A DNA stretch of 35,621 bases. Origin: a bacterium. GTDB lineage: Bacteria; CG03. Below are positions 6,446 to 35,418 of this stretch, piece after piece. A program made the translations under genes and the position numbers. How positions within the stretch are numbered: position 1 is the first letter of the stretch; every line of letters starts with the position of its first letter. Under the pieces are notes generated by a model, which saw only the letters and a program-made list of their open reading frames with translations, was not told where the DNA came from and did not search any database. The stretch is taken from positions 1 to 35,621 of the forward strand of contig VMTI01000114.1 in assembly GCA_013791675.1 (NCBI GenBank). The letters are read 5' to 3'.

Positions 6446-7870
6446 ATGAGCTATTTTAAAGCCTTAGTGATTACTCTCTTATTGTCTGTCGCTGCCTTTG
6501 CTGCAGTCGGAGCACCATATGTGAATTACAACTTCACTGTGGTGGACGAGAACGGCGACCCCATAACGGGGGGCTTGAATGCGTATATTTACAACACCTC
6601 TGATTCTTCAGTTACGATCAAAGCCGATGGGCAGGGGATTGGCACAAAAACCAATCCTATCTACTTCACGACAAATGGACTTGTTTCCTTCTTCACAAAG
6701 GAGACTTCCATAAATGTCATTGTCGTAGATACGCCGACAATAACGAGAACAATGAAATGGTCAAGTATGCCAGTGACAAAGCACAGGATTGTCTTTCCGA
6801 AAGCATGGACGACAATTGTGGTTGATGAAGCCATTACTGTATCGGGGACTATTGCAGCCTCCGATGTCACGGCAACCTACGGGGTGGGCGCCGCCACAGG
6901 TGTTTTTTCAAGCACACTTGCGGCCGCAACACTAAACACAGGCCAGGGAGCAAACGAGCTCTACGCCATGAGCCAGGACGTGGAATCTACTGACGCAGTA
7001 ACATTCAGAAATGTTGCGGCGACGTGGGGCGTAACAGGAGCGACCTTCACCTTCACAGGCGCGGGTAACGCGGCCACGATCAACACAGGGCAAGGTGCGA
7101 ATGAAGTTTACGCTATGAACCAGGACGTCGAGACCACCGATGATGTTACCCACAGAAATGTGACAGCGACATTCGGTGTAACCGCGGCCACCTTAACAGT
7201 GGTGACAAGCCTTGACTTCCCTGCCGGCTCTGTAGCGGGAGCTGACTTGGTGAGCGACAGCGTAACTGACACGCAACTGGCCTACAATACCGGACAGGAT
7301 TTAACGACAGCGAGCGACCCTACGTTCAGGGACGCAACGGTGACTTATGGTATTGATGTTGGAACGGTAGAGGCGTCTGGGGTTATAGACACAGCGTCCA
7401 CTATTGAGGCCGGCAGCGGTAACATAACAATCGTGAATGCGACCGGAAATCTTGACGGCGAAGTGATTGCCGACAACACCATTGACACTGACAGTGTCGA
7501 CTGGGGTGCCGGAACCGGGCAGATTGGTTTCCATTCACTGGCGACAATCGCGGTAGTGTTTGATTCCTCAACCATAACCACAACGGATATGGGGAAAATC
7601 TACATTTCCACGAAGACATTGCCTGCGTCATTTACATTACCGTATTCGTCAAACACGATTGACAACGGCTGTGTGATGATTAAGAACACCGGCGGGTCAA
7701 ATATCTATTCAGTCATTCCTTCGGGAACTGATCAGATAGATTTGGCCGGCGCGAGTGTGGCCTACGACGGCATTGACGCGGATAACGACTTCGTTGTCCT
7801 ATACAATGACGCGGGGGCCGCAGGTGTTGCTGGAAACTGGTATATCCTCGGGAAGAACGGTAGCCAGTAA
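6446..7870 (+). CDS. Repeat-containing structural/tail-like protein with N-terminal signal peptide
   Basis: MSYFKALVITLLLSVAAFAAVGA signal-like N-terminus; repeats NTGQGANELYAMSQDVESTDAVTFRNVAATWGV / NTGQGANEVYAMNQDVETTDDVTHRNVTATFGV / NTGQDLTTASDPTFRDATVTYGI. Confidence 0.6.
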   Translation: MSYFKALVITLLLSVAAFAAVGAPYVNYNFTVVDENGDPITGGLNAYIYNTSDSSVTIKADGQGIGTKTNPIYFTTNGLVSFFTKETSINVIVVDTPTITRTMKWSSMPVTKHRIVFPKAWTTIVVDEAITVSGTIAASDVTATYGVGAATGVFSSTLAAATLNTGQGANELYAMSQDVESTDAVTFRNVAATWGVTGATFTFTGAGNAATINTGQGANEVYAMNQDVETTDDVTHRNVTATFGVTAATLTVVTSLDFPAGSVAGADLVSDSVTDTQLAYNTGQDLTTASDPTFRDATVTYGIDVGTVEASGVIDTASTIEAGSGNITIVNATGNLDGEVIADNTIDTDSVDWGAGTGQIGFHSLATIAVVFDSSTITTTDMGKIYISTKTLPASFTLPYSSNTIDNGCVMIKNTGGSNIYSVIPSGTDQIDLAGASVAYDGIDADNDFVVLYNDAGAAGVAGNWYILGKNGSQ

Positions 7871-7880
7871 AGTATTGTGC

Positions 7881-7922
7881 GGGGAGGTTGCCCTTTGTGT
7901 AAAAGCAATGGGTGGCCTCCCC
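7881..7922 (+). promoter_or_regulatory. Long hairpin with 7-bp GGGGAGG/CCTCCCC stem just before a Shine-Dalgarno
   Basis: GGGGAGG 7881-7887 pairs with CCTCCCC 7916-7922; GGAGG 7926-7930 precedes ATG 7940. Confidence 0.55.
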
Positions 7923-7939
7923 CACGGAGGTAACAATCA

Positions 7940-8518
7940 ATGGCAATAGAAAAATCTGAAATTCTGGCAATAATAAATTCGCGTCTTAACAGGGCTGAAA
8001 CCGACATAGACGAAGAAATAAGGTCAGTGCTCTATGATATAAGTACCCGCGCCAATTTCATAAATAAGGAAGCGACCGCAGATACCACGGCAAGCACAAA
8101 CTATTACGCCGTGCCTGCCGACTTCAAGGATATGACCGTCATAAAAGCTGACGACGCCACACCACTTGACAAAATAACATTTGAGAATTTTCAAAAGAAA
8201 ATAGCGGAAGTTACGGGAACAAGCGAACCGAATGAATACTCAATAAAGAATGATTTTATATGGCTCTACCCGAACCCCGACAAAGTTTATACGCTGACGA
8301 TGTTTTATTCCATATTCCACCCGAATGACGTGGACACCATAGAATTCGGCGAACTGTTCAGGGAGTGCATTTATCAGGGAGTACTCGCAAAAATATGCGA
8401 GAAATACGAGGACTGGACAGCCGTGTCTTCACATATGACATTATACGAAGCTGAAATACAGAAGCGGAAAGACGCCCTTGACGAACCTATGTTCTTTTTG
8501 AAGGGCAACAATATATAG
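7940..8518 (+). CDS. Head-tail adaptor-like protein
   Basis: 192 aa, located between capsid and tail genes; composition consistent with podovirus adaptor (gp6/gp4-like) proteins. Confidence 0.5.
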   Translation: MAIEKSEILAIINSRLNRAETDIDEEIRSVLYDISTRANFINKEATADTTASTNYYAVPADFKDMTVIKADDATPLDKITFENFQKKIAEVTGTSEPNEYSIKNDFIWLYPNPDKVYTLTMFYSIFHPNDVDTIEFGELFRECIYQGVLAKICEKYEDWTAVSSHMTLYEAEIQKRKDALDEPMFFLKGNNI

Positions 8519-28445: not shown

Positions 28446-28453
28446 ACGCCGAA

Positions 28454-28532
28454 ACCCGGGACAGCAACCGGGTCCGCGGGAAACGGTCAATCCGCGCTGA
28501 TGAGGCAGACCACAATACCGGCAGCAGGCCGG
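28454..28532 (+). promoter_or_regulatory. Three consecutive GC hairpins in the leader of the 28547 ORF
   Basis: ACCCGG/CCGGGT (28454-28473), CGCGG/CCGCG (28475-28496), CCGGC-AGCAG-GCCGG (28518-28532). Confidence 0.4.
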
Positions 28533-29904: not shown

Positions 29905-30044
29905 AACAAATTGATAGCAGCGGACATCGGAAAGCAACAACCGGCAACGAACAAATTTTAACGTCCGGCTCGACCCAACGGAGGACATCATCACGTCCGC
30001 TGCACCCGCGGGCGGCCGGACTAAAAAAGGACAAAATACAATGA
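29901..30044 (+). CDS. Possible small coupled ORF (47 aa) running through a structured leader
   Basis: ATGA overlaps at both ends; MKQIDSSGHRKATTGNEQILTSGSTQRRTSSRPLHPRAAGLKKDKIQ; may be a by-product of the RNA element. Confidence 0.25.
   Translation: MKQIDSSGHRKATTGNEQILTSGSTQRRTSSRPLHPRAAGLKKDKIQ
29963..30021 (+). ncRNA. Structured leader element closed by GTCCGGC/GCCGGAC
   Basis: Perfect 7-bp closing stem 29963-29969/30015-30021, internal GGAC/GTCC hairpin, then TAAAAAAGGA before ATG 30041. Confidence 0.4.
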
Positions 30045-33463: not shown

Positions 33464-34219
33464 ATGGCCGAAGTAAAACAGGAACTGACAAAGAAAGACC
33501 AGGCAAGCGCTCTGGTTGACTGGATGAAACCCGCAATGGCGACCGCCCTGCCCCGGCACCTGAACGCCGACCGCATGGTGCGAATCGTGCTCACAGAGAT
33601 GAGGCGCAACCCCAAACTGGTGACCTGCACAAAGCAGAGCCTGGCCGGATCCGTGATCATGGCCTCACAGCTTGGCCTCGAACCCGGAGTAAACGGGCAG
33701 TGCTGGCTCGTGCCCTACGGCAACGAAGCAACATTCATCATCGGGTATCAGGGGCTCATCGAGCTGGCCTACCGCAGCAACATGGTGGAATTCGTAATAG
33801 GAGAAGCCGTGTACGAAAATGACGAATTCACTTACTCGCTCGGCACAGAGCAGTTTATCAAGCACGTGCCGGCAGAGGCCGACCGCGGGAAGCTCAAAGC
33901 GGCCTACGCCGTAGCCAAAATGAAAGGCGCGAGCATGCCCGTATTCAAAGTGCTGACGAAAGAAGATATCCTCAAAGTAAAGGCATCTTCGCCCGCGGCC
34001 AACAGCGCACACAGCCCGTGGAATACGTGGCCGGAAACGATGTGGGTAAAGACAGCCGTCAAAAAGCTGATGAAATTCATCCCGAAATCAGCGGAGATTA
34101 ACAAGGCGTTGGAAGCGGACGACAGGGTGGACGCGGGAAAACCGCAGCCCTTTAGCGACGTCATCGACCTGCCGGAGGAGAAGGAAGGAAAGGGAATCGA
34201 GATAGAGGACGTAAAGTAA
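33464..34219 (+). CDS. recT: RecT-family ssDNA annealing protein
   Basis: LAGSVIMASQLGLEPGVNGQCWLVPYGNEATFIIGYQGLIELAYRS is the RecT signature. Confidence 0.92.
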   Translation: MAEVKQELTKKDQASALVDWMKPAMATALPRHLNADRMVRIVLTEMRRNPKLVTCTKQSLAGSVIMASQLGLEPGVNGQCWLVPYGNEATFIIGYQGLIELAYRSNMVEFVIGEAVYENDEFTYSLGTEQFIKHVPAEADRGKLKAAYAVAKMKGASMPVFKVLTKEDILKVKASSPAANSAHSPWNTWPETMWVKTAVKKLMKFIPKSAEINKALEADDRVDAGKPQPFSDVIDLPEEKEGKGIEIEDVK

Positions 34220-34227
34220 ATGAGCAC

Positions 34228-34293
34228 GCGTGGCGGCACTGTGATCGGTCGACAAAGTGCATTAGGCAGGGTGCAAATCCCTGCCCGCCACGC
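34228..34293 (+). ncRNA. tRNA-like three-way-junction element (T-arm-like hairpin) upstream of a Shine-Dalgarno
   Basis: P1 GCGTGGCG/CGCCACGC (34228-34235/34286-34293), P2 GCACT/AGTGC (34236-34240/34256-34260), P3 GGCAGGG-TGCAAAT-CCCTGCC (34265-34285). Confidence 0.65.
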
Positions 34294-34307
34294 ATTAAAA
34301 GGAAGAA

Positions 34308-35240
34308 ATGAGAAAAACTAAACCCCGCAAACGATATAGCGACTGCGCTCGCTGGCACACCAAAAAGTGGCGCACCATGCCCACGCACCTCAAAGTGCTG
34401 TGGCAATACATATGGGAGAACGCCAACTGCGCCGGAATATGGGAGCCCGAGCTCGCCCTCATGGGAATTGAGGCCGGTGGCGTACCCATAAACGAAACAG
34501 AAATCAAGAAGGCCTTCGGCGAAGATATCCTCATCCTCCCGCACGGCGAATGGTATATAATAGGATTTATCAAATTCCAATATGGCAAAGAGCTCGAACA
34601 GATGAACCCCAAGAGCATGCTCCACGCCGCAGTCCTGGCGGCCGCAAAGGATAAGGGAATAGGCAGGGGCAGGATAATGGGGCTGATGTCAAATCCGATA
34701 GCGCCGGAAATCCCCGCGCCGATAGTGGCCCCCTTGCCTGACCCCGGGCCGGCGCCGGAAGCCATAGAACCGGTAAAAGACCCTACTTATAAGGAAAAGC
34801 AACCGGAACTCCCAACAATACCCCCGCGCCCAGTCCAAGCGGGCACATATTACGGTACCACAACGAACTTCGAGAGCATATGGGCTAAATACCCCCAGAA
34901 GACAGGGAAACGCGGCGCATGGGCGCATTTCAAGGCACAATGCCGAACCGCCGCAGACTGGGAGGCCATAAACATCGCATTGGCGAATTATTTGAAAAGC
35001 CCGCGGGTGAGAGACGGGTATATACAGGACGGCGAAACATGGTTCAATAACTGGAAGGACTGGGTGGCCGATCCTAACGCCGCGATAGAGAAGAAAAAAC
35101 CGGACGATGATTTTGTGCCGATAACATGCACGACATGCAGCCGGAAATTCGCCGTGCCCAAGGATGTGGCAAAGGCGATAGCGGATGAAGAAAAGGACTT
35201 TGTGTGTAGGGACTGCCGAAAAAGAGAGCGGCCGGAATGA
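34308..35240 (+). CDS. Replication-initiator-like protein with C-terminal zinc ribbon
   Basis: FESIWAKYPQKTGKRGAWAHFKAQ...YIQDGETWFNNWKDWV (common in phage replication proteins) and CTTCSRKF...CRDC. Confidence 0.55.
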   Translation: MRKTKPRKRYSDCARWHTKKWRTMPTHLKVLWQYIWENANCAGIWEPELALMGIEAGGVPINETEIKKAFGEDILILPHGEWYIIGFIKFQYGKELEQMNPKSMLHAAVLAAAKDKGIGRGRIMGLMSNPIAPEIPAPIVAPLPDPGPAPEAIEPVKDPTYKEKQPELPTIPPRPVQAGTYYGTTTNFESIWAKYPQKTGKRGAWAHFKAQCRTAADWEAINIALANYLKSPRVRDGYIQDGETWFNNWKDWVADPNAAIEKKKPDDDFVPITCTTCSRKFAVPKDVAKAIADEEKDFVCRDCRKRERPE

Positions 35241-35250
35241 GGAGAAAACA

Positions 35251-35418
35251 ATGACAGCTATTGAGAGAATCCTGAAGGAACACCTTGACAAAATCAATAA
35301 TAGCGGAAAAGATAAGACGAACACGCGTGGCGGTAGTTTAAGAGTAGAACGCCTTGAATATCAAGGTAAATGCAACGCTCGTGTTGCCCGCCCGCATCTT
35401 AAAAGGAGAATACAATGA
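35251..35418 (+). CDS. Possible small ORF overlapping a tRNA-like element
   Basis: MTAIERILKEHLDKINNSGKDKTNTRGGSLRVERLEYQGKCNARVARPHLKRRIQ; stop overlaps ATG 35415. Confidence 0.35.
   Translation: MTAIERILKEHLDKINNSGKDKTNTRGGSLRVERLEYQGKCNARVARPHLKRRIQ
35325..35395 (+). ncRNA. Degenerate tRNA-like cloverleaf upstream of a Shine-Dalgarno
   Basis: Acceptor-like GCG(T)GGCGG/CCGCCCGC, D-arm-like GTTT-AAGAGTA-GAAC, CCTTG-AATAT-CAAGG, GCAAC-GCTCGT-GTTGC; followed by TTAAAAGGAG. Confidence 0.55.

Follow-up and report, generated by a model that had tools for sequence, protein, structure and literature searches.

The recT-replication junction

The window, meaning the whole 35,621-nt stretch of DNA analyzed here, carries near its 3' end the recT gene of an uncultured phage, encoding an ssDNA-annealing protein, and downstream of it a gene for a putative replication initiation or primosomal protein (Table 1). 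The initial annotation had placed a compact tRNA-like RNA, here designated e1, between these two genes, and the Pfam and PHROG matches of the neighbors agreed with this position. Two features had been missed in that annotation: a paralogous four-way element (e2), and an in-frame open reading frame (ORF) of 33 codons running through e1. A 55-codon ORF containing e2 was listed by the ORF program from an upstream start at position 35185.

Table 1. Coordinates of genes, ORFs, and RNA elements at the recT-replication junction
Feature	Positions	Strand	Basis
recT, ssDNA-annealing protein	33464..34219	+	Pfam RecT 1.5e-46; phrog_148 1.6e-75
33-codon ORF overlapping e1	34220..34321	+	starts right after recT stop; overlaps replication gene start
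tRNA-like three-way-junction RNA e1	34228..34293	+	fold z -4.6; model R1 match 34230-34291, 32.9 bits
e1 acceptor-like stem, 5' strand	34228..34236	+	8-9 bp; family register GUGGCGG 34230-34236; fold and R1
e1 D-arm-like hairpin	34236..34260	+	GCACU/AGUGC, 5 bp; loop GG 34247-34248; fold
Linker AUUA replacing anticodon arm in e1	34261..34264	+	fold
e1 T-arm-like hairpin	34265..34285	+	GGCAGGG/CCCUGCC, 7 bp; loop UGCAAAU 34272-34278, identical in family
e1 acceptor-like stem, 3' strand	34286..34293	+	fold and R1
Shine-Dalgarno AAAAGGA of replication gene	34297..34303	+	sequence; unpaired in predicted fold
Putative replication initiation/primosomal protein	34308..35240	+	phrog_270 5e-7, phrog_9327 5e-5
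55-codon ORF containing e2	35252..35418	+	ATGA overlap with next ORF start; sequence
Paralogous cloverleaf-like element e2	35325..35395	+	fold z -3.8; alignment with e1

No homologues of the replication protein were found among the genome contigs searched. One partial match (29% identical) was obtained in Pseudanabaena phage Pan5, and the region of this match gave no match with the covariance model R1 described below. Another genome of the same genus proved identical over the terminal 5.6 kb of the window contig and thus offered no sequence variation; its RecT and replication protein were at the same coordinates (G000:C209 and G004:C44).

Other structures were observed on the + strand of the window. 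At 28447-28514, in the gap between two phage ORFs, Rfam identified a type II hammerhead ribozyme (RF02276) with 44.4 bits, which exceeds the gathering score. A structured gap at 29963-30021, closed by GUCCGGC/GCCGGAC (z -2.3 for 29955-30030), lay just before a ribosome-binding site (AAAAAAGGA), a position like that of e1 and e2, and had no T-loop. A long stable hairpin (GGGGAGGUUGCCC/GGGUGGCCUCCCC) was located at 7880-7925, in the gap between the ORFs 6446-7870 and 7940-8518.

The codon-usage log-odds were -0.10 per codon for the 33-codon ORF and -0.20 for the 55-codon ORF, compared with a 5-95% range of 0.064 to 0.473 for true in-frame windows. However, codons 1-33 of the replication gene scored low as well (-0.06 per codon), so the codon-usage argument against coding is weak. 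The 33-codon ORF is probably not coding.

Predicted folds of e1 and e2

A three-way junction consisting of an 8-bp closing stem, a 5-bp hairpin with a GG-containing loop, and a 7-bp hairpin with the loop UGCAAAU had been described from the sequence of e1, and all of these parts were recovered by fold prediction at the same coordinates. The closing stem was formed by 34228-34235 and 34286-34293 (GCGUGGCG/CGCCACGC), with a ninth G-C pair possible. As also described, the T-arm-like hairpin directly adjoined the closing 3' strand without a linker, and an anticodon arm with a 7-nt loop was absent. The minimum free energy of e1 was -36.3 kcal/mol, compared with a mean of -22.1 kcal/mol (sd 3.1) for 200 dinucleotide shuffles, none of which was as stable (z -4.6). 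When the entire + strand of the window was scanned in 80-nt segments, e1 ranked second by z and had the best energy among the 40 segments listed.

The loop of the T-arm-like hairpin departs from the T-loop consensus UUCRANN: U54, C56, and A58 are kept and position 55 is G. ARAGORN did not call e1 as a tRNA, and none of 4227 Rfam models matched e1 or e2 at E up to 5. A hammerhead-type reading was rejected, as no CUGAUGA/GAAA core was seen by eye and no Rfam match was obtained; an intrinsic terminator was also rejected, since no U run follows the stem. The element cannot decode.

The initial annotation stated that e1 ends just before the Shine-Dalgarno sequence of the replication gene, and the gap was found to be 3 nt. 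The start codon was also unpaired in the predicted fold. Because this fold leaves the Shine-Dalgarno sequence free, plain occlusion of it by e1 would be unlikely.

The second element precedes the next Shine-Dalgarno sequence (UUAAAAGGAGA). Its acceptor-like sequence is that of e1 with a bulged U, and CACGCGTGGCGG is common to the 5' ends of the two elements and TGCCCGCC.CGCAT..TTAAAAG to their 3' ends. Their local alignment score was 26.0, compared with at most 18.5 in 2000 shuffles and at most 19.0 for other segments of the window; as this score exceeds both controls, e1 and e2 are paralogues. In e2, the D-arm resembles that of a phage tRNA-Gly (22/24 nt, 91.7% identity, E 3), a 7-bp hairpin with an AUA triloop takes the place of the anticodon arm, and a T-arm-like hairpin at 35372-35387 has no T-loop. 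R1 gave nothing above 4.3 bits on e2.

The presence of both elements in open frames raises the alternative that only a codon-level signal is seen, with e1 and e2 forming the 3' portions of reading frames for two related short proteins and the structure a by-product. The two ORF products do have TRGG and AR--LK-R in common (TRGG...AR--LK-R), and the 55-codon ORF has an upstream AGGAG and overlaps the next ORF at ATGA. However, neither peptide matched any family in Pfam or PHROG, the peptide searches gave no significant matches, and the codon log-odds of both ORFs were below the in-frame range, with the reservation noted above for the replication gene. Moreover, it is at the nucleotide level that e1 and e2 are similar: 11 identical bases extend over four codons, and the 3' end is conserved despite a gap. 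We regard this alternative as very improbable.

A tRNA-like RNA family in Bacillota phages

BLASTN of e1 returned weak matches of the T-arm only, in Lactobacillus phage LP65 and Enterococcus phage EG-TP1 (E 3 and 9, respectively), and the e1 T-arm (GGGUGCAAAUCCC) was followed into public phages and genomes. Both matches sit in unannotated tRNA-like sequences, in which the T-arm is preceded by a D-arm resembling that of tRNA-Leu and followed immediately by an acceptor-like 3' strand. With the EG-TP1 element as the query, the same layout was found in Schiekviruses and in Listeria phages B025, LP-101, and B054. Further matches were in a Brochothrix, a Paenibacillus, and a Bacillus phage and in Lactobacillus phage LpeD, and compact versions were found in phiFL2A and phiFL3A. 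In total, 14 phage loci of the family were collected. A T-arm pattern was also scanned against genomes, one per species. At least 68 elements with the full layout, nearly all from Bacillota, were present among the matches listed; most of the remaining matches listed are, judging from their sequence, presumably FMN riboswitches, which contain the same T-loop.

In members of the family, a 7-bp acceptor-like stem is combined with a D-arm like that of tRNA-Leu (UGGCGGAAUAGGUAGACGC). The anticodon arm is replaced by an insert that varies from about 0 to 220 nt and in some cases is also split within the D-loop (L035, L092, L108, and L124). The T-arm, AUGYRRGG UGCAAAU CCYYRC (6-bp stem, G at position 55), abuts the acceptor 3' strand, and no CCA is present. 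The conservation of this T-arm partly reflects how the elements were selected, as the search pattern fixed most of its letters. A loop differing by one base from the T-loop consensus is not noise, since UGCAAAU was kept in the related phage copies read.

Compensatory substitutions had been proposed as a check on the structure of e1; among the family relatives, such changes were abundant in the acceptor-like stem. Acceptor pairing had been one criterion in collecting the elements; to guard against circularity, only the D-arm motif was used to find the 5' partner in 64 loci. In these loci, which contain 52 distinct acceptor sequences, 95.5% of the positions in the acceptor-like stem are paired, compared with 54.3% (sd 2.0, maximum 61.6) when 3' strands were swapped between members. 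Across 60 cores after trimming, pairing was seen in 97.9% of cells, both sides had changed in 241 cells compared with 63.7 in shuffles, and the covariation score was 0.655 compared with 0.199 for shuffled cores. These results indicate that the family exists and that its acceptor-like stem covaries.

No Rfam family at or below its cut-off covered the phage elements, and the same was true of the regions around the elements in nine genome loci; one weak, sub-threshold match to permuted tmRNA overlapped the EFDG1 copy. In the literature, of which our coverage was partial and is no proof of absence, nothing relevant was found on the UGCAAAU T-loop sequence or on such a family. A large set of tRNA-like RNAs in Firmicutes phages and prophages is apparently absent from listings. 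These RNAs are probably processed like tRNAs and cannot function in translation.

The inserts are diverse. A complete tRNA-Lys(TTT) is nested inside the insert of one element (L143:5812-6012, - strand), and a second T-arm-like hairpin (GUAGGGUGCAAAUCCC or GUAGGGUGAAAAUCCC) is held in the inserts of two others (L099:7539-7737, - strand; L144:1303-1502, + strand). The otherwise different inserts of L021, L023, L089, and L115 have the subdomain CGGGUAAA ... GUCCC ... GGUGCCG in common, which suggests an additional conserved structured module. The acceptor-like stem tends to track the host genus despite differing inserts, with GUCACUG in Enterococcus phages, GUGCUUG in lactobacilli, and GAUGUGG in Paenibacillus.

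The typical site of the family, common and not universal, is between a RinA/ArpU late activator and terminase. Elements follow ArpU/RinA-type late activators in the phage records of VEsP-1, LP-101, BtpYZU01, phiFL2A, phiFL3A, and EG-TP1, and a late activator lies upstream in seven of the sampled genome loci (L047, L055, L060, L081, L126, L127, and L129). Downstream of the element, the small subunit of terminase is encoded in L126 and the large subunit in L095; a lysis gene and a transposase were among the other neighbors seen. Of the large lytic phages, EFDG1 has the element beside tRNA genes and LP65 has it inside a tRNA cluster. The tmRNA of phage EFDG1 (Rfam RF00023; L021:248-598, + strand) is immediately upstream of its tRNA-like element. 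The context of e1, a recT/replication region, differs from the late activator/terminase context common in the family. As most family elements are not located immediately before a gene, the family by itself does not imply a punctuation role.

Placement of e1, its candidate role, and known systems

A covariance-model search, also proposed in the initial annotation, was carried out with R1, which was built from the 60 genome cores with the window excluded. At E up to 10, R1 gave a single match in the window, at e1 (32.9 bits; E 7.3e-8, a rough value). For comparison, seven training members scored 35-58 bits as single matches or were split into pieces, and phage copies outside the training set scored 24-53 bits. 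FMN riboswitch loci with the same T-loop scored 16-19 bits. In genomes of the host's phylum, genuine tRNA-Leu genes identified by ARAGORN scored up to 31.8 bits, so the R1 score of e1 shows tRNA-likeness and cannot separate the family from tRNA-Leu. Among ARAGORN-called tRNAs in the fetched loci, a T-loop starting with UGCAA was found in 2 of 110. The model, derived from other phage and prophage RNAs only, thus picked out e1 alone in the window, and the compact copies of phiFL2A and phiFL3A adopt the same three-way junction without an anticodon arm, with intact stems and the same T-loop. These results confirmed the view that e1 is a tRNA-like RNA lacking an anticodon arm.

In the family register, the T-arm of e1 reads GCAGGG-UGCAAAU-CCCUGC, conforming to the family pattern GYRRGG-UGCAAAU-CCYYRC, and is followed directly by CCGCCAC. 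The 7-bp acceptor-like stem ending in G7-C is represented by GUGGCGG/CCGCCAC, to which two outer pairs are added. The D-loop in the ungapped register (UGAUCGGUCGA, 34242-34252) has the family length, with its GG in register. The D-arm matched the family consensus at 9 of 17 positions, a level reached by 1.5% of window positions, with a D-stem that is weak in register, and cmsearch treated this region as a local end. The UGCAAAU loop, the T-stem of at least 6 bp, and the absence of an anticodon arm as in phiFL2A and phiFL3A point to e1 belonging to the family, a kinship that rests on the T-loop, T-arm, and D-arm register in common together with the compact phage copies.

The same observations bear on whether e1 could be a decaying phage tRNA gene, now functionless after loss of the anticodon arm. 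Pseudo-tRNAs do occur in phage tRNA clusters, as in the LP65 annotation, and e2 retains a tRNA-Gly-like D-arm without a T-loop. However, e1 has perfect stems of high stability, anticodon-less copies with intact stems and the same T-loop are found in other phages, and family stems are kept under massive sequence turnover. Decay therefore appears improbable.

We propose, giving it about an even chance, that e1 is a diverged, insert-free relative of the UGCAAAU tRNA-Leu-like Bacillota phage family that serves as a processing or punctuation element of the recT-replication mRNA. The functions suggested in the initial annotation, an RNase P/Z mimic, a translational regulator, or an mRNA stabilizer, are candidate roles. 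Both RNase P and RNase Z recognize an acceptor stem stacked on a T-arm. Since e1 also ends three bases before a free Shine-Dalgarno sequence, processing or end protection would be the simplest role for it. Within the recT-replication mRNA, e1 would fold as an acceptor/T-arm mimic of the kind recognized by these enzymes; the transcript would be cut, or its ends protected, at the gene junction; and the replication-gene mRNA would be left starting a few bases before the free Shine-Dalgarno sequence. The fold and tRNA-likeness come from computation, and from them we infer the processing.

Alternatively, e1 may be an mRNA-stabilizing or translation-coupling structure that merely uses the T-loop module, with ribosomes leaving recT re-starting at 34220 and translating through the hairpin, thereby coupling recT with the replication gene. 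The 33-codon ORF is suitably placed, with its start next to the recT stop and its end reaching past the start of the replication gene, and the occurrence of the UGCAAAU T-loop in FMN riboswitches means that the loop alone is no proof of tRNA origin. By contrast, the Shine-Dalgarno sequence is outside the predicted fold, the R1 scores of FMN-type T-loops were far below the 32.9 bits of e1, and the codon usage of the ORF is not coding-like. Coupling is possible and, in our view, doubtful.

More broadly, and with our judgment evenly divided, Bacillota phages and this phage of another lineage may carry an unlisted class of non-decoding tRNA-like RNAs with a constant tRNA-Leu-like core, a T-loop G55, and a freely exchangeable insert (none, hairpins, or a whole tRNA-Lys), of which e1 would be the minimal, core-only intercistronic module. 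The family spans unrelated lytic and temperate Firmicutes phages, often beside packaging genes, and is absent from Rfam, and such a conserved non-coding family would make a clear target for functional work. A tRNA core with a fixed elbow and no anticodon suggests that phages use tRNA-processing or tRNA-sensing machinery beyond decoding, and the compact forms of the window, phiFL2A, and phiFL3A represent a roughly 50-66 nt minimal version.

Among known systems, bacterial and phage tRNA-Leu (Rfam RF00005) resembles e1 in its stacked acceptor and T stems, its T-arm abutting the acceptor 3' strand, and its D-loop GG, and the D-arm UGGCGGAAU.GGUAGACGC is kept in the family. Unlike tRNA-Leu, e1 has no anticodon arm, has G instead of U at T-loop position 55, stacks at least 13 bp instead of 12, does not encode CCA, and is negative with ARAGORN and Rfam. 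The tRNA-like domain of tmRNA also has tRNA-like ends without an anticodon arm, and most family members have a large insert there; by contrast, e1 has no insert and gave no Rfam tmRNA match. The T-loop module of FMN riboswitches contains the same hairpin as e1 (GGGUGCAAAUCCC), but no acceptor-like strand that pairs in a D-arm context follows it. Bacterial Y RNAs and the YrlA tRNA mimics are, like e1, non-decoding RNAs imitating the tRNA elbow; in comparison with these, e1 is matched by no Rfam model and keeps the tRNA order of arms.
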